The notes below the pieces were generated by a model. It was not told where the DNA came from. It worked only from the letters and a program-made list of their open reading frames with translations, and ran no database searches. The translations under genes were made by a program, and so were the position numbers. Positions 2,768 to 55,179 of a DNA stretch of 64,000 nucleotides are shown piece after piece; within the stretch, counting starts at the first letter, position 1; each line of letters starts with the position of its first letter. Where the stretch lies: assembly GCA_003327425.1 (NCBI GenBank), contig QOQW01000008.1, positions 62,001-126,000 on the forward strand, given 5' to 3'. This stretch comes from Candidatus Ozemibacter sibiricus (GTDB taxonomy: Bacteria > Muiribacteriota > Ozemobacteria > Ozemobacterales > Ozemobacteraceae).

Positions 2768-4644
2768 AGCGACGAGGCATGTTTCTGGTGGAATCCCTGG
2801 TGGCGCTAGGCATCCTGGCGGTGGTCGTCGGGTCGCTGTTGCAAGGAGTGACCAGCGGAGTGCAGGGCGCTCAACAGGGCCGGCAGCAGATGCAGGCTGG
2901 GGTGATCGCCGAAGCGGTCGCCGAGGAGATCCGGATGGTCTCGGCCAGCGGCACCTGGGGAACGCATGTCTGGGTACCGTTCGGCAGCGCTTCGGGGGCG
3001 GTGCGGCTGGTCGCCGATGGACGGTGGTACGAGCTGTCGGCTTCGACGGTGCCGGCTGCCCCCGATCCGACCAATTTCACGGTGACCTACCGGGCCGTCC
3101 CCCTTGGTCCGGCCAGTCTGGCCACGCACCTGGAGATCAAGTTCCCGCCGATCGCGACCCCGCCGGCTTCCTGCACCGCCACCGGCCTCATCGCTTCGGC
3201 TTCGGTGAGCCGATTGACCGCTCCCAATCTGGTCGATTGCGCCACTGATACGCTCTGGAACCCCGGGCCCATCAAACCGGGATCGTATGCCTTGACCTTC
3301 TGGCGGGAATTCTGGAGGCCCCCTCATGGCATCCATCCCGGGTATTGGGAGATCAGGCCTTTTTCGTTTTACAGATATTACTGCATCTATGCTAGCAGTA
3401 CGAACTGGCCATTCTGCTGGGAGCTGCAGTGCAGCAACGATCCGTCTGGCGGCTGGACCACCATCGATCGTCGGAGCGACGTCTACTGTGTCGCTGGCTG
3501 GAACAAGTTCCAGATCACCCCTCTTGATTCGCCCAACCGCCGCTATTTCCGCCTGGTCATTTCCGATTATGAAGGGGCCGGGTTGTCATTGGGTGAAGTC
3601 TATTTCCCTCGCAGCACCGACCCCGTGCCAGGGGAACCCCATGTCCCTCCTCCTCCCAATTTCGTGGCCTCGGCGAGCGTGCATCCCAGTTCGGCCAATC
3701 GATTGGTCGATGGGTCGACCGGCCATCCCTGGAACCCGCCTGGGCATATTCCTCCCGTCGGTGACCCCTACGTGCTCGATTTTGACATGGACCCTGAACA
3801 GGACATCCAGGTCGAGAAGTACCGGTTGTTCTGCGATAACACCTTCTTTCCCACCCAATGGACGCTCTACGGGAGTTTCGGATCGGATACTTTCACCCTG
3901 GATACGGGAGCGACCACGACCTGGCAGGCGAACAGTTGGGCCACTTTCACCTGCGATCTCGTTGCCACGATCAGTTCGATGCGTCTGGTGGTGGCCTCAT
4001 GGTCGGGTTCGGCCCTGAAGATCAACGAAATCGAGTTCATCCAGCCCCCGCCGCCACCCCCGCCGGCGACGTTCGTTCCCCCTGATACGCCGTTCAGACG
4101 CCTGGCGGCAGCCAACGTCGACGATGCCAATGCCGACCGGCTGGTCGACAACGTTCCCGACTCGTTCTGGAACACTGGACTGCTGCCCCCGCCGGTCGAT
4201 TCTCCTGAACGCTATGTGATCGACCTGACCGCCTCCTTCCCCTTCATTGCTCGGGAATACACCATGTTCTGTCAGGCCAAGAACACCCCTCGGGCATGGA
4301 CCTTGGATGGCAGAAGACCGAGTGGAAGCTGGTACCGACTGGATACCAGGAGCAACGAAACCTGGCCTGGGGAGGGATGGCGCTCGTTCACGTTCCCTGA
4401 CCCCCCGGCGACCGAGCCGGCCAGTTATGCGGCCTACCGGATGACCATCACAGCCTATAACGGGGACGGAGTCTCGATCGCCGAGTTCGATTTTCCCCAT
4501 AAATATGTGCTGGCCAGCGATACCAGGGTGTTCGCTCCGGGAACCCTCCTCCAGGTCGAAGTGCGGGTGCAGCCGCGGGGGACGACCGACCCGGCGGAAG
4601 GGGCCTGGCTGCGGTTCCTGGTGGGGCGGCGAGGGGCGGAATGA
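2764..4644 (+). CDS. Large minor prepilin with three tandem discoidin (F5/8C)-like domains
   Basis: The first residues, MKRRG|MFLVESLVALGIL, are a prepilin cleavage site with Glu at +5 and a hydrophobic helix, as in GspI/PilV-type minor pilins. The protein is 626 residues, several times the usual length. About residues 150-600 hold three repeats, each with a (V/A)ASAS-like or AAANV start, NRLVD.....WN, a W.L.G.....(F/Y).LD.(R/G) segment and an (R/K)(L/I)....G.....E(V/I/F).F end, separated by Pro-rich linkers. This pattern resembles F5/8 type C (discoidin) carbohydrate- or surface-binding domains; the assignment is from reading, not a search. Coupled by ATGA overlaps to both neighbours. Parts are noticeably less GC-rich than the surroundings. 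Confidence 0.75.
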   Translation: MKRRGMFLVESLVALGILAVVVGSLLQGVTSGVQGAQQGRQQMQAGVIAEAVAEEIRMVSASGTWGTHVWVPFGSASGAVRLVADGRWYELSASTVPAAPDPTNFTVTYRAVPLGPASLATHLEIKFPPIATPPASCTATGLIASASVSRLTAPNLVDCATDTLWNPGPIKPGSYALTFWREFWRPPHGIHPGYWEIRPFSFYRYYCIYASSTNWPFCWELQCSNDPSGGWTTIDRRSDVYCVAGWNKFQITPLDSPNRRYFRLVISDYEGAGLSLGEVYFPRSTDPVPGEPHVPPPPNFVASASVHPSSANRLVDGSTGHPWNPPGHIPPVGDPYVLDFDMDPEQDIQVEKYRLFCDNTFFPTQWTLYGSFGSDTFTLDTGATTTWQANSWATFTCDLVATISSMRLVVASWSGSALKINEIEFIQPPPPPPPATFVPPDTPFRRLAAANVDDANADRLVDNVPDSFWNTGLLPPPVDSPERYVIDLTASFPFIAREYTMFCQAKNTPRAWTLDGRRPSGSWYRLDTRSNETWPGEGWRSFTFPDPPATEPASYAAYRMTITAYNGDGVSIAEFDFPHKYVLASDTRVFAPGTLLQVEVRVQPRGTTDPAEGAWLRFLVGRRGAE

Positions 4645-44930: not shown

Positions 44931-45599
44931 TCAGGGGGTCGAGCGCAGTTCCAGCCCGCCGGCGCTGGGGGTGCGCAGGACGAAGGTACGCAACCGTCGC
45001 CGGTTGTTGGGGATGTCGCGGGTCAGGGACGCATTCGCGTAGACGGGGTAGCCGGGGTCGGTGACCAGGTTGAGGATGACCTGATGGGGATCGGAAGCGA
45101 TGTTCCGCGGGTACCAGAAGGCCAGGCGATCGAGGGCGAGGCGGTTAGGAGCGATGACGGCGCCGGGGGTCGAGAACCCGTCGTGTCGCACGCGGTAGGT
45201 GAAGGTGATTCGCGTCTCGCCGGGTTCGATGTTGTAGAACCAGAAGTAGGGCGGCACATAGCGGAAGGCGAGATCGCGCTGGGAGCTGGTGATGGTCATC
45301 TGCTTGAAATTGCCGTGGCAACGCATCACCACAGGGTCGGAGGCGGTGGTCACGAGCCAGGCGTCGGCGATGATCGCCGCCTCGTAGGCGGCCGGGTCGA
45401 ACTCGGCGTACATGTTGACCAGGGCGAGGTCGTAGAGCGCTTCGCTGGCCAGCGGCACGGTCGCCACCGGCGGGATGCCGGGCAGGGCGCGCACGGGGTG
45501 GCCCGAAGGGCCGCCCGGCAATGGTTCGGCCGCCGCCCCGAAACTGGCGGCCACCGCCACCATCAAGATGATCGCCAGGCTTGTCCGAATGTGGGTCAT
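44931..45599 (-). CDS. Exported hypothetical protein, last gene of the radical SAM unit
   Basis: A 222-residue protein with a signal peptide (SLAIILMVAVAASFGAAAEP). The mature part is beta-rich (FRYVPPYFWFYNIEPGETRI) with a single Cys (MRCHGNF), and ends in a region with RRLRTFVLRTPSAGGLEL. I recognise no family. The start overlaps the EamA stop as ATGA, so the two genes are translationally coupled. If the upstream genes make a modified peptide, this may be its envelope partner; that is speculative. Confidence 0.65.
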   Translation of the reverse strand: MTHIRTSLAIILMVAVAASFGAAAEPLPGGPSGHPVRALPGIPPVATVPLASEALYDLALVNMYAEFDPAAYEAAIIADAWLVTTASDPVVMRCHGNFKQMTITSSQRDLAFRYVPPYFWFYNIEPGETRITFTYRVRHDGFSTPGAVIAPNRLALDRLAFWYPRNIASDPHQVILNLVTDPGYPVYANASLTRDIPNNRRRLRTFVLRTPSAGGLELRSTP

Positions 45600-46531
45600 G
45601 GGGTGTCCTCCTTCGTGGTCGGGCCGGCGCTATCGGGCGGTCCGGGGGTGCGGTCGAACGCGATGCCGAACATGACCAGGACGGTCCCGGCCAGGGCGGC
45701 GGGGACCGGCTGCTCGCCCAGGAACGCCCAGGCCAGGCCGATCGCGACCGGCGGCTTGCAGAAGAACAGGAGGCTGGTGCGGCCGGCGGGCAGGGCGGCC
45801 AGGGCCTTGAAGAAGGTGATGTAGCCGAGTCCCGACACCACCACCCCCAGCACCAGCAGGCGAGGCCAGAGATCGGCCGGGGGGCGCACCGGAAGATCGA
45901 GCCAGAGCAAGATGGGCAGATAGGTGGCGACGCCGAGGGTGAAGCTGAGCACTGTCACGCGCAGGCTGCCCAAGCGTTGCACGATGCCCTTCGACAGCAC
46001 GGTGTAGAGGGCGAAGCCGGTCAAGCCGACCAGCCCCATGGCGATGCCGAAGGGGGTGTCGGCTCCGGGCGTGGGACGGGCGGCCACCAGGGTCACCCCA
46101 GCGAACCCGATCAGCAGAGCGACCAGTCGACGCCAGCCCATCGGCTCGCCGAGCAGCAGCCAGGCGAACAGGTTGGTCGCCAGCGGGTTGGCGGCGATCA
46201 GGATGGCGGCGGTCGAGGCCTTGGCGAATTTGATGCAGACGGCATGCGCCCCCATCGCCACGATGATGTTCAGGCCGCCCAGGCCCCACAGGCGGAGCAG
46301 GTCGCCCAGGGACAGGCGCGCCGGCTCGCGCCGCGGCGCCGCCAGCCAGGCCGGGACCAGACAGGCCACGCCGAGCAGGAACCGCCAGAAGGTCATGACC
46401 GCCGGTTCGAGCCGGTGCCGGATCGGGTTGGCCACCACCTCGATGGCGCTGAACGCCACCACGGTGAAGGCCAGCAGGAACGGCAACCGCCCGCGGGCCC
46501 ACCAGGCTCGCCAGCCGACCGGTTCCTGCAT
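45596..46531 (-). CDS. EamA/DMT-family transporter
   Basis: A 311-residue protein with ten predicted membrane helices in two five-helix EamA repeats. Signatures are ANPIRHRLEPAVMTFWRFLLG in the first and YTVLSKGIVQRLGS...ALAALPAGRTSLLFFCKPPVAIGLAW in the second, the latter the usual C-terminal half motif. Members export or import small metabolites and amino acids. It follows the radical SAM gene by 37 bases and is coupled to the next gene, so it could export the product of that unit. Confidence 0.87.
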   Translation of the reverse strand: MQEPVGWRAWWARGRLPFLLAFTVVAFSAIEVVANPIRHRLEPAVMTFWRFLLGVACLVPAWLAAPRREPARLSLGDLLRLWGLGGLNIIVAMGAHAVCIKFAKASTAAILIAANPLATNLFAWLLLGEPMGWRRLVALLIGFAGVTLVAARPTPGADTPFGIAMGLVGLTGFALYTVLSKGIVQRLGSLRVTVLSFTLGVATYLPILLWLDLPVRPPADLWPRLLVLGVVVSGLGYITFFKALAALPAGRTSLLFFCKPPVAIGLAWAFLGEQPVPAALAGTVLVMFGIAFDRTPGPPDSAGPTTKEDTP

Positions 46532-46568
46532 GATGGCTGCTCCTGATCGGCCGGGGGAAGGGCTTCCC

Positions 46569-48068
46569 CTACCCGGCCGTCGTCGTCGTTTCGGCCACGC
46601 GCGTGGCCAGTCCGGGCGCGGCCGTCGTGCGTGGCGAATGGGCCCCGCACGAATCGGTGCCGGACAGTTCCCTGTCTTCGGGATAGAAGCCGAATTTCTT
46701 GAGGATCTTCAGCTTGGGCAGGACATTGTTGGCCAGATCCATGTGGAAGAACCCCGGGAAGATGTCGGGGTGCTCCTGGATGAACTCGTAGATCGGCCGG
46801 TGGGTCGGGGCTACCTGGAAATGCGACAGGTGGCTGATCTCGTGCCCGGTGATCATGTACTCGGGGAACAGGCTGGGACTGAAATCGAGGGGGTAGCGCT
46901 CGCGGTTCTCGCGGAACAGCTCGGTCTGGGGCAGCAGGCAGAGCAGGGAAGGCAGGATACGCGCGCCCATCTTGCGCAGCATCACCATCTGGAAGACGGT
47001 CTGGTGGAAGTCCTCCATCGTCTCGAAGGGGAATCCCCAGACGTAGAAGGCGTCGACCCGCGGAAAGATCTGCACGGCCTCGCCTACCCGGGCGATCGCC
47101 TGTTCGGCGGTGAACCCCTTCTTGACGAGCTGCAGCACCCGGTCGGAGCCGCTTTCGATGCCGAATCGCAGCTCGACGCAGCCGGCCGCCGCCATCGTCT
47201 CCATCATCTCGCGGTCGGTCAGATCGACCCGGCCGAACGCCTTCCACAGGACGGGCAGCCCGGTCTCGCGCAGCTTCTGGCAGAAGGCCATGACCTTGGG
47301 CTTGTTGCAGACGAAGAACTCGTCCTGGAACAGGAACATCTTGACGCCGGCCTGTTCATGCAGATGGCGCATCTCGGCGATGATGTGGTCGACCGAGCGG
47401 AAGGTGGAATCGTGGTCCCAGACCGGGGCGACCGAGCAGAACGTGCAGGGGTAGGGGCAGCCGCGCGTCGACATCAGTCCATACCCTTGATAGCGGGGCA
47501 GATCGACCTTGTGGAAGGCGGGCAGAGGCAGGGCGTCGAGATTCCGGATCCGTTCGCGGCGGGGGGTGCGCACCACCTGCCCGTCGGGGCCGCGCACGAC
47601 CAGGCCGGCCACCTGGCGCAGGTCGGCGCCCGCCTGCCAGGCGGCGAGCAGCTCGGGGCCGGTGCGTTCCCCTTCGCCGACCGCGATGGCATCGACCCAG
47701 GGGAACCGGGTCATGATCTGCTCCTCGACCGCTTTGGCGCCGACCCCGCCCAGCACCAGGAAGCGGTCGGGGTAGCGCTGCTTGACCTCCTTCATCGCCA
47801 GCAGCGCGAAGGGCAGCAGGTTGGCCATCACCGAGAAGCCGATGACCGGCGCGGGATCATGCAGGAATTCGACGATCCGGTCGGGCAGGAACGGCTCGTC
47901 GAACGTGTTGAGCTGGTAGTCGCGGAAATCGACGACGTAGCCGGCGTCTTCGAGCGCCCTGGTCAGGTACAGGCAGCCGAGGGGGACGTGCAGCTCGCGG
48001 TCGATGCCCTCGAGATACCTGACGTAGAGCAGGTTCAGGTTGAGCAGGGTGAGGTCGGCGGCGGGCAT
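46569..48068 (-). CDS. B12-binding-domain radical SAM protein
   Basis: A 499-residue class B-like radical SAM enzyme. Residues 1 to about 145 form a Rossmann-like cobalamin-binding domain (VPLGCLYLTRALEDAGYVVD, LVLGGVGAKAVEE, VDAIAVGEGE). The radical SAM core has CX3CX2C at Cys204, Cys208 and Cys211 (STRGCPYPCTFC), then FLFQDEFFVCNK and ELRFGIESGSDRVLQLVKKG. Such enzymes methylate or rearrange unreactive carbons in lipids, cofactors or peptides. The gene is 3 bases after a protein with a peptide-leader-like domain, suggesting that protein as substrate. Confidence 0.9.
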   Translation of the reverse strand: MPAADLTLLNLNLLYVRYLEGIDRELHVPLGCLYLTRALEDAGYVVDFRDYQLNTFDEPFLPDRIVEFLHDPAPVIGFSVMANLLPFALLAMKEVKQRYPDRFLVLGGVGAKAVEEQIMTRFPWVDAIAVGEGERTGPELLAAWQAGADLRQVAGLVVRGPDGQVVRTPRRERIRNLDALPLPAFHKVDLPRYQGYGLMSTRGCPYPCTFCSVAPVWDHDSTFRSVDHIIAEMRHLHEQAGVKMFLFQDEFFVCNKPKVMAFCQKLRETGLPVLWKAFGRVDLTDREMMETMAAAGCVELRFGIESGSDRVLQLVKKGFTAEQAIARVGEAVQIFPRVDAFYVWGFPFETMEDFHQTVFQMVMLRKMGARILPSLLCLLPQTELFRENRERYPLDFSPSLFPEYMITGHEISHLSHFQVAPTHRPIYEFIQEHPDIFPGFFHMDLANNVLPKLKILKKFGFYPEDRELSGTDSCGAHSPRTTAAPGLATRVAETTTTAG

Positions 48069-48071
48069 CGT

Positions 48072-49148
48072 TCAGTCCTCGCGGCGCCGCGGGACATCGG
48101 GCCGGGAGCCGCGGGTGGGCTGGAAGGAGTCGAACAGACGCTGCAAGGGTTCCCGGGGCGGGGCGCCGAGCTGCTTGAACCGGATCGCCAGGGCCCGGTC
48201 GCCGAGATCGATCTCATACAAGGCCCCGTCGCCGGCGACCTCGGCGCACAGCGCGCGGATGGCCTTGCCCAGAGGCAGGCCGGCCACCGAGCGGGCGACC
48301 GGTCGGTTGACATCGAGGCCAGGGCAGGGCTGCACGGTGATGCCGATGCCGGTCTCGTTGCGCAGGGCGTTGATGGCGGCTTCGAAGCTGAGGCCGGCCG
48401 AGTTGGTGTGGACGATCAGCTCATGTAGGGTCTCCGTGGTGAGGGGCGTCGTGGCGACCGGGGTGGCCGGCGCCTCGGTCGAAGCGGGCGGTGGGGCGGG
48501 CGGCGGGGAGGAAGGCGGCAGATCGGGCCGGATGCCTCGGGTGATGCGGATCTCATCGGGCAGATCAGGCCGGATGCCGCGGGTCATGAGATCTTCGTCC
48601 GGCAGATCGGGCCGCGCCCCGCCAGGGGGCATGGCATGCGGGGAATCGGGGCGCCCCCCCTCGGCGGTGGGGCCGGCGTCAGGATCAACGGCGAGGGGGC
48701 CGGCTTCCTGCGGCGAAAGATCTTGGATCGTCTGCATTCCGTCGGGCGGTGGTTCGGCCCGTCCGGCGACCGGTGCGAACGTCAGTTGGGTGACCAGGGC
48801 CACCAGCGCGGCGGCCGAGCCGCCGGCCAGCAGCCGGCGTTGCGGTTCGGGCACCGGGGTGAGCCGCGCCATTTCGCGCAACTGCCCGGCCGGCACCAGC
48901 TCCAGCATGTCGCGCTCGGCCGGATCGAGGGCGAGCCCGATGGCATCGGCCAGCCCGGCCCGTTCGGTCACCAGCCGTTCGAGGAAGGCGGGGTCGACCG
49001 CCGCCTTCATCATCAACGCCTCCAGGCCGCGCGGAATGCCGGCCCCCGTCGTGCGGGCGCCGGCCGGGCGGCCGCCGACGATGGTATGTCCCTGCGCGCG
49101 CGGGCTGTCGGCCGTCGCCATTCTGATCTTCCGGTCTTGTTCGCTCAT
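48072..49148 (-). CDS. NHLP-leader-like protein with Tat-like segment, RPDLP repeats and STN-like domain
   Basis: A 358-residue protein with four parts. Residues about 41-95 (DPAFLERLVTERAGLADAIG, LDPAERDMLELVPAGQLREM) resemble the leader domain of NHLP/Franean1_4349-type RiPP precursors. An Arg-Arg-Leu-Leu followed by 20 hydrophobic residues (104-127) looks like a Tat signal or anchor. Residues 165-211 have GRPDSP, ARPDLP and two exact-length 14-residue repeats ending GIRPDLP, and the tail has SRPDVP at 348-353. Residues about 236-325 resemble an STN/secretin-N short domain. The radical SAM gene follows after 3 bases. Family likeness is by eye; alternatives are an anti-sigma or TonB-type regulator. 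Confidence 0.6.
   Translation of the reverse strand: MSEQDRKIRMATADSPRAQGHTIVGGRPAGARTTGAGIPRGLEALMMKAAVDPAFLERLVTERAGLADAIGLALDPAERDMLELVPAGQLREMARLTPVPEPQRRLLAGGSAAALVALVTQLTFAPVAGRAEPPPDGMQTIQDLSPQEAGPLAVDPDAGPTAEGGRPDSPHAMPPGGARPDLPDEDLMTRGIRPDLPDEIRITRGIRPDLPPSSPPPAPPPASTEAPATPVATTPLTTETLHELIVHTNSAGLSFEAAINALRNETGIGITVQPCPGLDVNRPVARSVAGLPLGKAIRALCAEVAGDGALYEIDLGDRALAIRFKQLGAPPREPLQRLFDSFQPTRGSRPDVPRRRED
48516..48614 (-). repeat. 42-bp in-gene tandem repeat encoding RPDLP units
   Basis: Two 14-residue units (RPDLPDEDLMTRGI and RPDLPDEIRITRGI) are followed by a third RPDLP. The DNA units are 42 bp and nearly identical, so the copy number could vary between strains. Confidence 0.65.
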
Positions 49149-49343: not shown

Positions 49344-52337
49344 TCAGGCCGAGGCTCCCCGGCCGATCTCATAGGCGTCAGGGGGCTGGCCCGGGGCGGT
49401 CGGCAGCGGGACGATGGTCCAGCCCTCGCCCAGCCGAGACGCCGTGAGGGGACAGACGACCAGTTTGGTATGGACGGTCCGTTTGGTCACCTTTTCCATG
49501 GCGGCGGCCCGGTTGACGGTGGGCCCGGTCACCGTGAACTCGCGGCGGCCGTCGGCGCCCCCCACCAGGCCCATCAACAGCTCGCCGGTGGCGATGCCGA
49601 CTCCGCAGGAGATGGTGAACAGGCCTCGGCGCTGGCGATCGCGATTGAACCGGCCCAGCGCCTTGAGCATATCCAGCCCCGCCTGGGCGGCTCGCCGCTC
49701 GGGGGTGTCACGGCCGTGCATGGGCAGGAAGACGGCGAAGATGGCGTCGCCGATGAACTTCTCGATGGTGCCGGCATGCTTCTCGATCGCCACCTCCATC
49801 GCGGTGAGGTAGGCGTTCAGCATGTCGACGACCGCTTCTGGCGGGTGTTCTTCGGCCAGGGCCGTGAACCCGCGGATGTCGGCCATGATGACCGTGCCGG
49901 TCGCCCGGGTGGCCCGCGCGGTCTGGCCGCCTTCCACCGCTTCCAGAGCGAGATCCGACAGGAAACGCCGCAGGAATTCCTTTTCCCGCACGCCATCGGC
50001 CATCCGATTGAAGCTGGAGCAGAGCTGACCGAGTTCATCATCGCTCGTCACCGGCAGCCGCACGTCATACTGGCCGCCGGCCATCGTGGCCACGCCCTCC
50101 TGCAGGGCGCGGACCGGCCGCAGGAAGATGCGCTGGAAGAACAGGATGGCCAGTCCGGCGATCAGCAACGGGTAGAGGCCGGCCAGGACCGCTGCCACCG
50201 CGATGGGGTCGGCGGGATCATCTTCGGGTTGGCGCCGCAGGGCCACGGCGACGAAGTCGGTCCCCTTGAGCGGGCGAGCGATGGCCAGGAGCCGACCGCG
50301 GGGCCGGTGGCCCCCAACCGCCGCCGGGAGGGCCGGTTTGGGCAGGATGAGCCGCTGCACTCCCTGCTCCCGGAAGGCTTGCCGGAGCAGGACCGTGGCC
50401 AGCGGAAAGACGTCGGCCCACTCGGGGATGTGCGGTGAACTCCGGGCGGCCAGGGTGTTCATCAAGATCAGGCGCGGGAACGGGCCGCGATCCAGGTGCC
50501 GCTCGGACGCCCGGGCGATGAAATTGCGGAACTGGATCTCCTCGCGCCGGAAGATGAGCAGGAAGAGCCGATGGGGCTGGCGGTCGGCATCCCGTGTGAC
50601 CTCGAGCATGGCCCAGGCCACTTCGTGCAGCATCCGGAAGGGGAGCAGCCGGCCGGTCTGCACCACCATGCGCAGCATGCTGTCTTTTCCCACCATGGCT
50701 TCGAGGAATTCATAAAGGACGCCGCCCCGGACTTCTTCGATGTTGACGTCTTTCCGGGGCGGGCCGGGCTCGGCCAGGACGAAGCCGAAATGCTCGCCGA
50801 CCTTGTGCAGGAGAGCGGTCACCAGCGGGGTCATCTTGGCGGTCGGGTGTGATGATGCCGAGGCGACCACCCCTTTCGGGGGACCGATCTTCGTGGCGAA
50901 AGAGGCTGGAGGGCGAGGCTCTCCTGGTCGCAGGATGAGTTCGCCCGAGAAGGTCAGGACTTCGGGATGGCCACGCGCCACCAGATACACGGTGCCGGCT
51001 CCCTGGATGCCTAGATCGAGAACGGCAGAGGCGATGGCGGCGCGCGACGGGAGGACGGGGGCGCGCCAGTCCGGCCGTCGGAGGAAGCGGCGAGCGGCGG
51101 CCACGGCGGCCTGGAGCTGCTGATTGAGGGATTGTTCCATGGCCTCCAGCTCGGCTTCGGCCTGACGGAACAGGGTCAGTTCCTGGAGATTGGCCTCGAG
51201 TCGGGAGCGGGTCCAGGCGATCCAGAGCATGCCGAGGCTTGGAAGGAAGGTGGCGAGCAGCACGAGAGTGAGGAATTTGCGGGTGATGCTGGCGGTCCAG
51301 CGCCAGGGCTGGAACCAGCCGATCCATCCCAGGACGAGCAGTCCGCCGACCCAGGCCCCGGTCAGGCCGAGCATCCAGGGCGTTCTGGCCAGCCGGACCG
51401 GCGGGGGGAAGCGGCGGAGGTGCACCATCACCCACCCGGGGATGTCGGACAGGTGGACGAACGCGAGGCCGGCGGTGTCGGTGACGAACACGCCCTGGTC
51501 CTGGTCGGGCAGGATCTGGCGCATCTGGTCGGGACTGATCGCCGACCCGCGCAGCCACGGGTAGGGACCGCGGACGGGCCCGATCCGCACCGGCAGACTA
51601 CGGGCCAGGCCGCTCGACCGCAGGGCGCGAACCAGGCACCGGCGCGAGGTGAGCTGGTGTTGCGGGATGAAGACGGCGACCCGGGCTTGCACTTCAGGAA
51701 GGGTGTTGGGGGGGCGCCAACGATACGGATACAGGGCTTCGCGCATCGACTGGTTCAGGCGGCGGGGCGGCACCAGGGCGAAGAACAGCGCCCCGCGCCG
51801 ACCATGCATGGTGACTTCGGCGAAGTTGGCGAAATTGTAGGGAGCGCTCATGAGGCTGGCATTCCCCAGCATCTCCCGCAGACGAATCTCATGATCTTCA
51901 GCGTATTTCCAAAAGTTGGTCTCGCGGTGATACTGATGCCCCATGGTCTTGTGGAGGATGTCGAGTTCGACGGGCTGGAAATGCCGATGCCGGATCAGCC
52001 GGCCTTCGCCGTCCCCGTCCCATAGGGCGAAAGCGACCTCGTTCCCGTAGGCGCGCCGGAGTTCCCGTTCGAAGCGCCGGAAGCCCTGGCGCGTTCCGCC
52101 CAGAAGGTGGCCGAGGTTGGCGTAGAGGAACTCCTCGGCCAGGAAGACGGGATCGGCGCGGCCGCGCAGCACGGGCAGCAGCTGGCGCAGCTCCGCTTCC
52201 CGCGAAGCGCGCAAGGTCTCGGCCTGGGTTCGTTCCAGGCGATCGAGGAAGAGCCATTGGCCGGCCAGCAGCAGCGCGAGGCCGAGCACGCCGAACGGCG
52301 CCAACGCCGACGGCGGGGGCGAGCGGCGTTCAGGCAT
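49344..52337 (-). CDS. Membrane class III adenylate cyclase, catalytic-metal subunit
   Basis: A 997-residue receptor cyclase. The N-terminal helix (about 12-30), two central helices, a fourth near residue 690-715, two extracytoplasmic sensor regions and a HAMP (PVRALQEGVATMAGG...DDELGQLCSSFNRM) match its neighbour. The cyclase domain (from about 815) has both metal ligands: Asp820 in MADIRGFT and Asp864 in EKFIGD, with adenine-selecting Lys860 and Thr935. Asn942 is present, but the transition-state Arg is Ala946 (VNRAAAME instead of VNLAARLE). It should need a partner giving the Arg. ATG 52337 has GGAGG 7 bases upstream and overlaps the upstream gene by 8 bases. Confidence 0.87.
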   Translation of the reverse strand: MPERRSPPPSALAPFGVLGLALLLAGQWLFLDRLERTQAETLRASREAELRQLLPVLRGRADPVFLAEEFLYANLGHLLGGTRQGFRRFERELRRAYGNEVAFALWDGDGEGRLIRHRHFQPVELDILHKTMGHQYHRETNFWKYAEDHEIRLREMLGNASLMSAPYNFANFAEVTMHGRRGALFFALVPPRRLNQSMREALYPYRWRPPNTLPEVQARVAVFIPQHQLTSRRCLVRALRSSGLARSLPVRIGPVRGPYPWLRGSAISPDQMRQILPDQDQGVFVTDTAGLAFVHLSDIPGWVMVHLRRFPPPVRLARTPWMLGLTGAWVGGLLVLGWIGWFQPWRWTASITRKFLTLVLLATFLPSLGMLWIAWTRSRLEANLQELTLFRQAEAELEAMEQSLNQQLQAAVAAARRFLRRPDWRAPVLPSRAAIASAVLDLGIQGAGTVYLVARGHPEVLTFSGELILRPGEPRPPASFATKIGPPKGVVASASSHPTAKMTPLVTALLHKVGEHFGFVLAEPGPPRKDVNIEEVRGGVLYEFLEAMVGKDSMLRMVVQTGRLLPFRMLHEVAWAMLEVTRDADRQPHRLFLLIFRREEIQFRNFIARASERHLDRGPFPRLILMNTLAARSSPHIPEWADVFPLATVLLRQAFREQGVQRLILPKPALPAAVGGHRPRGRLLAIARPLKGTDFVAVALRRQPEDDPADPIAVAAVLAGLYPLLIAGLAILFFQRIFLRPVRALQEGVATMAGGQYDVRLPVTSDDELGQLCSSFNRMADGVREKEFLRRFLSDLALEAVEGGQTARATRATGTVIMADIRGFTALAEEHPPEAVVDMLNAYLTAMEVAIEKHAGTIEKFIGDAIFAVFLPMHGRDTPERRAAQAGLDMLKALGRFNRDRQRRGLFTISCGVGIATGELLMGLVGGADGRREFTVTGPTVNRAAAMEKVTKRTVHTKLVVCPLTASRLGEGWTIVPLPTAPGQPPDAYEIGRGASA

Positions 52338-55179
52338 CGAGCGCCTCCACGCCGAAGATGGTGAGGGCACCCACCCGGCCGCGCACGGTGGTGATCGTGG
52401 TCGGCAGCAGACGGACCCCGGGCAGGGGACGGATGAGCACCGCGGCGGTGGCCAGGATGGTCGGCCGGCCGGGGCGTCCGGCCTCCTTCTCCAGGCGGGC
52501 GGCCAGGTTGACGGTGTCGCCGATGACGGTGAAATCGAGGCGTTTGCGCAGGGAGCCGATGTGCCCGGCGATGACCGGGCCGGCGGCGATGCCGGTGCCA
52601 TGGCGGAAGATCGGCAGCCCTGCCCGGGTTCGCTCTTGCATCCAGGTGTGCAGGCTGGCCTGCAGGGTCAGCGCGGCTCTCACCGCTCGCTCCTCGGGCG
52701 CCGCCAGCCCGGGGGCGGGAAAGAACACCGCCATGGTCGCATCGCCCAGGAACTTGTCGATCTCGCCGCCCCACGCGCGGGTGGCGGCCTCGCAGCGCGC
52801 GAGGAAGCCGCTGCGCACGGCCATGGCTTCGTCGGCGGGCAGGGCCGCCTCCAGGCGCGCGAATTCCCGCAAACCCGAGAAGCTGACGGCCACCTGCCGG
52901 CGCTCGGTCATGACCTGCGGGGCTTCTTGCGCCTGGGCGATCAACTCCCGGTTCAGCAGGGGCAGCATCCGGGATTTCTGGCGCAACTCCTCCACCAGCC
53001 GGTTGAATCCCTTCGCCAGCGCGCCCAGCTCATCGTCGGCCTGGGGAATGGCCACCACGTCGTAATGGCCGCGTTCCAGCTCATCCATGGCGCTGGCCAG
53101 CGCCAGGACGGGGGCCAGCAGCAGCGATTCCAGAATGCCCGCGAGGCACATGGCCACGCCCAGCGTCATCACGCCGAACAACGCCAGGAAACGCCAGGAA
53201 TGGGCGAAGATGCCCTCGCCCCCATCGTCGGGCACGATGACGGCGCCGACGGTGGACAGCCCGGCCAGCGGCCGCCCCCGGGCGAGATAGGACCGCCCGC
53301 GCATGGTGAGTCGCATGGTGATCAGTTCCTGGTTGAACTGCACGAGATCGAGGAGCTCCTTCAGGCGAGGATGCCGCGGCTCGCGACGAAGGCCGGCCGG
53401 AGCGAGGGTCCGCAGGAAGATTCTTTCAGGATGGGGCTGCCGGGCCAGCCAGTCCTGGAAGAACCAGGCGCAGAACCGTGGGAAATCGAACGTGACCAGC
53501 AGGAAGTCGCGGGGTTCGCCGGTCGCCGTCTTGCGCACCGAGCTGTACAGGAAGAACTGGTCGCCGCCGAACTGGGTGAGTCGCAAGCGGGCGTTGGGCA
53601 GGAAATCGATCATGTCGCGCCCGCTCAGGAAAGATTCGATTACCGGCACCGACATCTTCTGCAGGTCGGCGATCTGGAAATGCGCGGCTTCCAGGAGCCG
53701 CTTGATGAAGTAGTGGAGGGCGCTTCGGGTGCCGACATCGGCATACGGGCGAGCTGTCAGCGTCGACAGGATCCGCCATCGCTGGCGGGCGTAGGTCGCA
53801 TCTTTGCAGCCGAAGGGTTGCAGCGGTCGGAGCAGGTCGAGCACATCCTGCAGGTCGTTGATCCGGCCATAGGCGGGCGAGGCGGTCACCGCGCGCAGGA
53901 GGTTCTGGACATGAGGAATGCCGCTGGCCACAGCCTGCTCGGCCGACAGGAGCTGGTTCTCCAGTTCCTGCTGCACCTCGGCTTCCCGGTGCTGCGCCGA
54001 TTTCACCAGGAAATCGAGGCCCCAGATGCTCAGGAACAGCAGCGGGAAGCCGGTCAAGGCCATGGTCCCCAGGCGGAAGCGGGTCGCCAGCCGCAGGGAA
54101 GGCGCCAGCAGACCGCCTCCCATCGCCAGCAGGGCCAGAGCGGCGAGGGTGACCAGCCCGATCGTGAGGCCGCGGATGAGCCGAACGGCGCGAGCGGCCT
54201 GCCGCGCGGCCGGAGAGGTCTGGCGGACGGCAGCGACGAGCACCAGGTCGGGGTCTTGCGACCAGAACCGGGCCAGGAAGGTGAAGCCGCCGTGCGACAG
54301 GAAGCCCTGGCCGTTCTCGAGCCGCTGGAACAACCCGTGCATGAGCCCCGGATTGAGCAAGCCGTCAGGCTGGGCCACGCCGTCGCCATAGCCGTTCTGC
54401 CGCGACTGCCAGTAGCCGCCGACCTTGGTATCGGCGGTGGTGAGGCGGGCGACCGCCCGCTTCAGCTCCCACCCGAAGCTGGCCCGGCCGGTGGGAACGA
54501 GGAGCAGGAACCCGCCCAGGCGGGGCGCCGCGCGCCGCCCTGGTCGCCGGTTGCGGGGCGACCGCAGCACCCGGCCGGCCATCAGCATGGCTTCCCCTTT
54601 GAAGAGCACCGGCACCGGCTGCCGGAAGCCGGCGCGCAGGGATTCGATCGATGCCAGGGTTCCCATGGTGAACCTGATCTGATGGGCGGCCAGCCTGGCT
54701 TCGGCGGGGGTGGCCCCGCCCCCGGGCGCGAGCGTACGGTAGACCGCCTGCCAGGCCGTTCGTTCCGGCACCGGCGGCCCGCCGGCCGGTTGCACCAGGC
54801 GGCCGGCGCGATCGAACCAGTAGAGACGGCTCGCGGCGGGAAACCGCCGGAAAAAGGCGGCCGACAGCACGCGGACGCGCGTGGGGGTCACCGCGCGGTT
54901 CCCCAGAGCGGTGGCGGCCTGCGCGGCGAAGGCATCGAGCGCGGCGCCGACGAGCGAGGGCAGGTCGAGCTGCCGGTCGAGGCGGGCCATCACCGCCCGG
55001 GCCCGATCCCGGTCGGCCAGGTCGAGGACGCGCGCCTGTTCGGTTTCGAACTGGACGAGCAGCTGCTCGATCAGCCACGCGGGCAGGACGATGCCGAACA
55101 GGAAGAACAACAGCAGCCAGAACGGGCTCGGGGTGGTGCCGGCGGCGGCCGGAGCCGTGGTAGGAGGCATGGCAGGCAT
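52330..55179 (-). CDS. Membrane class III adenylate cyclase, Arg-donating subunit
   Basis: A 949-residue receptor cyclase of the same layout as the downstream gene. It has a first membrane helix at about 20-42, a large extracytoplasmic region, two helices at about 340-395, a second sensor region, a helix near 680-705 and a HAMP (DDELGALAKGFNRLVEEL). In the cyclase domain the first metal Asp is replaced by Gly769 (FSGLREFA versus FADIRGFT). Asp813, Lys809, Thr884, Asn891 and Arg895 (VNLAARLE) are intact. Alone it should be poorly active. The start ATG 55179 faces a divergent gene 42 bases away. Confidence 0.87.
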   Translation of the reverse strand: MPAMPPTTAPAAAGTTPSPFWLLLFFLFGIVLPAWLIEQLLVQFETEQARVLDLADRDRARAVMARLDRQLDLPSLVGAALDAFAAQAATALGNRAVTPTRVRVLSAAFFRRFPAASRLYWFDRAGRLVQPAGGPPVPERTAWQAVYRTLAPGGGATPAEARLAAHQIRFTMGTLASIESLRAGFRQPVPVLFKGEAMLMAGRVLRSPRNRRPGRRAAPRLGGFLLLVPTGRASFGWELKRAVARLTTADTKVGGYWQSRQNGYGDGVAQPDGLLNPGLMHGLFQRLENGQGFLSHGGFTFLARFWSQDPDLVLVAAVRQTSPAARQAARAVRLIRGLTIGLVTLAALALLAMGGGLLAPSLRLATRFRLGTMALTGFPLLFLSIWGLDFLVKSAQHREAEVQQELENQLLSAEQAVASGIPHVQNLLRAVTASPAYGRINDLQDVLDLLRPLQPFGCKDATYARQRWRILSTLTARPYADVGTRSALHYFIKRLLEAAHFQIADLQKMSVPVIESFLSGRDMIDFLPNARLRLTQFGGDQFFLYSSVRKTATGEPRDFLLVTFDFPRFCAWFFQDWLARQPHPERIFLRTLAPAGLRREPRHPRLKELLDLVQFNQELITMRLTMRGRSYLARGRPLAGLSTVGAVIVPDDGGEGIFAHSWRFLALFGVMTLGVAMCLAGILESLLLAPVLALASAMDELERGHYDVVAIPQADDELGALAKGFNRLVEELRQKSRMLPLLNRELIAQAQEAPQVMTERRQVAVSFSGLREFARLEAALPADEAMAVRSGFLARCEAATRAWGGEIDKFLGDATMAVFFPAPGLAAPEERAVRAALTLQASLHTWMQERTRAGLPIFRHGTGIAAGPVIAGHIGSLRKRLDFTVIGDTVNLAARLEKEAGRPGRPTILATAAVLIRPLPGVRLLPTTITTVRGRVGALTIFGVEALDA

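Follow-up and report, generated by a model that had tools for sequence, protein, structure and literature searches.

A two-gene receptor in Candidatus Ozemibacter sibiricus predicted to form a heterodimeric adenylyl cyclase with one live and one dead site

Introduction

In class III cyclases, as exemplified by CyaC and the mammalian membrane adenylyl cyclases (tmACs), each active site draws its metal-binding Asp residues from one chain, and Lys, Asp or Thr, Asn and Arg from the other. The mammalian enzymes (ADCY1-9) are arranged TM-C1-TM-C2 in a single chain with 6+6 transmembrane (TM) helices; one half provides the metal Asp pair and the other provides Lys, the adenine residue, Asn and Arg, giving one live and one dead site. 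Soluble guanylyl cyclase alpha/beta (sGC) and the chytrid rhodopsin-cyclases NeoR/RGC divide their active-site residues between separate genes and are obligate heterodimers. The bacterial enzymes Rv1625c/Cya of M. tuberculosis, Arthrospira CyaC, Anabaena CyaB1 and P. aeruginosa CyaB share the class III fold, but are homodimers with all residues on each chain; the domains studied here have their nearest solved relatives among bacterial cyclases of this kind.

A 2022 review describes the single-protein, mammalian-like C1-C2 form as unknown in bacteria, and a 2025 paper describes bacterial class III adenylyl cyclases as typically monomers that need to dimerise (PMC12505454). The known class III heterodimers, namely tmAC, sGC and the chytrid rhodopsin cyclases, are eukaryotic. 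In the open-access literature, to which our search was confined, no description was found of bacterial heterodimeric class III cyclases, or of cyclases from Riflebacteria or Spirochaetes.

The window analysed here is a stretch of 64,000 nucleotides from Candidatus Ozemibacter sibiricus (contig QOQW01000008.1, positions 62,001 to 126,000). Two overlapping genes within it, encoding chains A and B, very probably specify a membrane-bound class III adenylyl cyclase that is a receptor dedicated to working as a heterodimer and converts ATP into cAMP, one of its sites being live and the other dead, as in the mammalian enzymes. Unlike these, the bacterial pair has 4+4 TM helices, HAMP linkers and extracytoplasmic sensor segments; it bears Thr as the adenine residue (class IIIb-like) where tmACs have Asp (class IIIa); and it is encoded by two genes in the order C2-C1, a single polypeptide being found only in 32 paralogous fused open reading frames (ORFs). 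It differs from sGC and NeoR/RGC in that those are eukaryotic and GTP-specific, with different sensors. The best match to tmAC C1 has an E-value of only about 1e-4, the best solved relatives being bacterial enzymes; judged by sequence, the pair lies nearer to the bacterial cyclases, and its likeness to tmACs is to be read as convergent and not orthologous.

Results and discussion

Organisation of the gene pair

Both ORFs, their positions and every residue named in the initial annotation were re-read singly and agreed with it, as did the 8-base overlap between the genes. The features, all on the minus strand, are as follows.

52330..55179, minus: chain A, upstream gene, C2-type half, 949 aa; four TM helices, two extracytoplasmic segments, HAMP, class III cyclase without metal Asp-1
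53131..55125, minus: predicted TM helices of A, four in all (residues 19-37, 340-358, 370-388, 665-683), and two intervening segments (hydropathy)
52978..53124, minus: HAMP domain of A (Pfam)
52342..52977, minus: cyclase domain of A, about residues 735-946 (Pfam and alignment)
52873..52875, minus: A Gly769 (codon GGT), in place of metal Asp-1
52495..52509, minus: A Asn891 and Arg895, transition-state residues, retained
52330..52337, minus: A/B gene overlap, ATGCCTGA, B start and A stop
49344..52337, minus: chain B, downstream gene, C1-type half, 997 aa; four TM helices, HAMP, cyclase domain with both metal Asp, without Arg
49986..50135, minus: HAMP domain of B (Pfam)
49398..49985, minus: cyclase domain of B, about residues 785-980 (Pfam and alignment)
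49878..49880, minus: B Asp820, metal Asp-1, retained
49746..49748, minus: B Asp864, metal Asp-2, retained
49500..49502, minus: B Ala946 (codon GCC), in place of the transition-state Arg

Each chain shows four hydrophobic segments, as is usual for the halves of this family, in the order TM helix, extracytoplasmic segment 1, two TM helices, segment 2, TM helix, HAMP, cyclase; this is the layout of a HAMP-linked membrane receptor, in which a TM helix is followed by HAMP and then by the output domain. HAMP and Guanylate_cyc (PF00211) both score above the Pfam cut-off in A and in B, the latter at 60.9 bits for B and 33.1 bits for A (curated cut-off 21.9). AlphaFold2 single-chain models, built from shallow alignments, were poor (pLDDT 44 for A and 41 for B). 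Equal synthesis of the two chains, proposed earlier from the overlap, is plausible.

Adjoining B on the same strand (45596-49148) lie genes for a 358-aa protein, a B12-binding radical SAM protein and an EamA transporter, in an order conserved in two congeneric genomes. The 358-aa protein gives a weak match, below cut-off, to the Os1348-type NHLP clan (RiPP precursor-like), and the region is possibly a RiPP cluster.

Active-site residues are divided between A and B

The residue register is backed by phmmer, which aligns both chains with bacterial class III enzymes of solved structure: B matches the Anabaena and Arthrospira cyclases with E-values of 1e-19 to 1e-17, and A matches OaPAC with 2e-17. 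Besides the residues listed above, A has D813, K809 and T884, and B has K860, T935 and N942, so that the Lys and Thr previously assigned to both chains are indeed present. The full set (two metal Asp, Lys with Asp or Thr, Asn, and Arg) is attained only across A and B, and in neither chain singly.

In the proposed mechanism the two Asp that bind metal would come from B, and A would provide Lys and Thr to bind adenine, Asn to bind ribose and Arg to bind phosphate. Of the two sites in an A/B dimer, one would then be complete and specific for ATP and the other dead, as is the case in mammalian C1/C2; an A/A dimer would miss metal Asp-1 twice, and a B/B dimer would miss Arg twice. Because each chain has its own predicted extracytoplasmic sensor and HAMP domain, a single enzyme would read two inputs. 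We infer a physical A/B dimer without useful homodimer activity, with cAMP as its product, one dead site and two-input sensing.

Lys together with Thr is the signature of class IIIb adenylyl cyclases, and residues of the GTP-selective type found in soluble guanylyl cyclase are absent from A, which has K809 and T884 at these positions. A heterodimer that makes cGMP, cCMP or cUMP instead is very unlikely, given that Lys and Thr occupy the adenine-recognition positions in all 92 C2 halves of the family described below. At least 12 proteins that bind cNMP are encoded in the genome and could read the signal; they do not discriminate between the candidate nucleotides.

The window pair belongs to a clade of eight orthologous and paralogous pairs, in all of which the C2 member has Gly at Asp-1 and the C1 member lacks Arg, having A, F, Q or H there. 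These shared losses rule out sequencing error. B and three other clade members (the paralogue L035, with L166 and L181) retain Asn, both Asp and Lys, L035 having Ala at the Thr position. On these residues the window clade would represent an early stage, with Arg lost in 8/8 and Asn still present in B and the three others.

The near-completeness of B bears on how strictly the two chains depend on each other. In tmACs the Arg enhances the rate, and its loss slows catalysis without abolishing it. It was originally proposed that only the A/B heterodimer is competent. The complementary partition, seen in 17 pairs of this genome and 92 of the family, some of them fused, upholds the heterodimer, but "only" must be weakened to "by far the best", because B misses Arg alone; a B/B homodimer may be weakly active. 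It might be supposed on the same grounds that B, with both Asp, Lys, Thr and Asn, and with similar sets in L035 (Thr apart), L166 and L181, acts chiefly as a low-activity homodimer, A being a pseudo-cyclase that regulates B by tuning or sequestering it. This we regard as unlikely: A holds Lys, Thr, Asn and Arg, which a pseudo-cyclase does not need and which are found in 92/92 of its class, and most C1 relatives additionally lack Asn and often Lys.

The loss of one catalytic residue from each chain would also fit two decaying pseudo-cyclases with no catalytic role. Such decay is scarcely credible in view of the open frames, the co-diversification of the halves, the strictly complementary losses in 92 pairs, and the low dN/dS of the cyclase domains; in comparison with the congeneric orthologue this ratio is about 0.12 in B and 0.19 in A, which indicates purifying selection.

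Complementary pairs in two whole genomes

In the organism's own Riflebacteria genome (5.7 Mb in 58 contigs) PF00211 matched 53 times; four of these matches (C45, C42, C17:81251 and C55:124664) were set aside as missing the whole catalytic motif set and being probable wrong-strand reading frames. Seventeen pairs (34 domains) were found, ten as adjacent same-strand genes and seven fused in single ORFs of 2,151-2,424 aa. In 17/17 the C1-type half lacks Asn, Arg or both while retaining the two metal Asp, and the C2-type half has lost Asp-1 (replaced by G, S, T, H, E or Q) and retains Lys, Thr, Asn and Arg; in some C2-type halves Asp-2 is also replaced by Glu.

Paired domains are incomplete in 34/34 cases in this genome, and lone cyclases complete in 14/16; in G017, which represents another genus, the figures are 36/36 and 23/24, the lone count including one copy that was missed by the profile and scored as complete. 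The Fisher p-values, 1e-10 and 1e-15 respectively, are only indicative, because the domains share ancestry. Together the censuses give 70/70 incomplete paired domains and 37/40 complete lone cyclases. Chance is ruled out as the origin of the pattern by the complementary losses throughout the 34 paired domains of the own genome, set against its 14 complete lone cyclases out of 16. In neither of these fully searched genomes did a half of the split type occur without its partner.

The two incomplete lone cyclases of the own genome are a dead domain at C29:88420 and a divergent 196-aa protein at C23:55852. A 786-aa ORF at G000:C29:87523-89883 (L037) carries a lone domain, GEKTRH, in which both Asp, Asn and Arg are replaced, and is a candidate pseudo-cyclase. 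The divergent 196-aa cyclase-like ORF, with non-standard residues, occurs in two genomes (G000:C23:55852-56286 and G007:C14, L324).

Pairs across the Riflebacteria

The sample of relatives comprised about 80 same-family loci picked from C2-like matches and 80 named loci; since the former were chosen in this way, the two whole-genome censuses are the unbiased tests. Together with the own genome, the sample amounts to 92 Riflebacteria pairs, among which 32 are fused. In 92/92 the sole complete site is formed by the C1 metals with the C2 Lys, Thr, Asn and Arg, a partition that is partly definitional, because Asp, Asn and Arg served to sort the halves. Lys and Thr, which were not sorting criteria, are both present in 92/92 C2 halves, Thr being the adenine residue in each; among C1 halves Lys is found in 31/92 and Thr in 48/92. 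Eleven of the 92 C1 halves have Arg at the relevant position, every one of them without Asn, and the three C2 halves that retain Asp-1 have Glu in place of Asp-2.

The 32 fused pairs are single ORFs in the order TM-C1-TM-C2, and the two fused proteins examined each contain two HAMP and two cyclase domains. Misassembly as the origin of these ORFs is ruled out by their number, their presence in many genomes and their distribution in two fusion-state clades. Tandem arrays of fused C1-C2 genes occur at L178:1700-18860, L026:2014-15478, L294 and L298, with three genes consecutive in G003, which suggests ongoing duplication of whole fused receptors.

Lone homologues with all residues, whose existence had been named beforehand as a point against the heterodimer, do occur. 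Cyclases without a partner gene (for example L187, L210, L216 and L221) resemble the pairs in length, TM positions and C-terminal cyclase domain; unlike them, they have all six catalytic residues and are probable homodimers. As these 4-TM proteins form a separate lineage, likely in the homodimeric ancestral state, they do no harm to the heterodimer reading. In several genomes, at five loci (L035:8817, L188:1430, L198:11391, L208:13049 and L217:11982), pairs have beside them on the opposite strand a lone cyclase that is complete and about 700-780 aa long; four of the five were in the tree, and those four cluster.

Co-diversification and origin of the two halves

Trees were built after removal of the six active-site columns. 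In a 289-row tree the Riflebacteria C2 halves all form one group and the C1 halves nearly so, 14 complete cyclases being nested in the clade of the C1 ancestor. A 105-row mixture-model tree gave C1 as one group and C2 as one group, the support for the Riflebacteria C1 group being weak (21%). The two halves have co-diversified: the partner distance matrices give a Mantel r of 0.81 over 88 pairs, with 0/2000 permutations as high, and r is 0.76 inside the own genome, again with no permutation as high. The C2-first gene order of the window lies near the base of the C2 group, C1-first pairs make up the main clade, and the fused state requires three changes on the tree.

Outside the family, in the same phylum or beyond, the best match of each checked genome was a complete cyclase, except in three Spirochaetes genomes. 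In these, two cyclase genes lie side by side and lack the long membrane half (ORFs of about 390-610 aa), one partner being DDKT(G/R/S)E-like and the other HDKTNR.

L119, 7413-10846: Spirochaetes pair
L282, minus: Spirochaetes pair, domains at 4086 and 5698
L283, minus: Spirochaetes pair, domains at 4481 and 5947

In the tree the Spirochaetes halves cluster together, joined by a complete cyclase of Spirochaetes. Common descent with the Riflebacteria halves is rejected by AU tests (p 0.0002 for C2, 0.004 for C1). The complementary split therefore arose at least twice in bacteria.

Conclusions

The comparative evidence from pairs, censuses, trees and co-diversification lends good support to the heterodimer predicted earlier for A and B, as far as sequences can indicate. 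Natural bacterial heterodimers, natural fusions and intact single-gene relatives are found together in one family, and the mammalian design with one live and one dead site would have arisen more than once. The pairs would offer ready-made orthogonal cyclases with separate sensors for work on signal integration. It is probable that this one bacterial family has re-run the evolution of the mammalian adenylyl cyclases, from a 4-TM homodimer through complementary duplicates to dozens of heterodimers and on to tmAC-like fusions, with the stages coexisting in living genomes; the Spirochaetes would independently have reached the two-gene stage, and the window pair, whose C1 half lacks only Arg, would be an early one.
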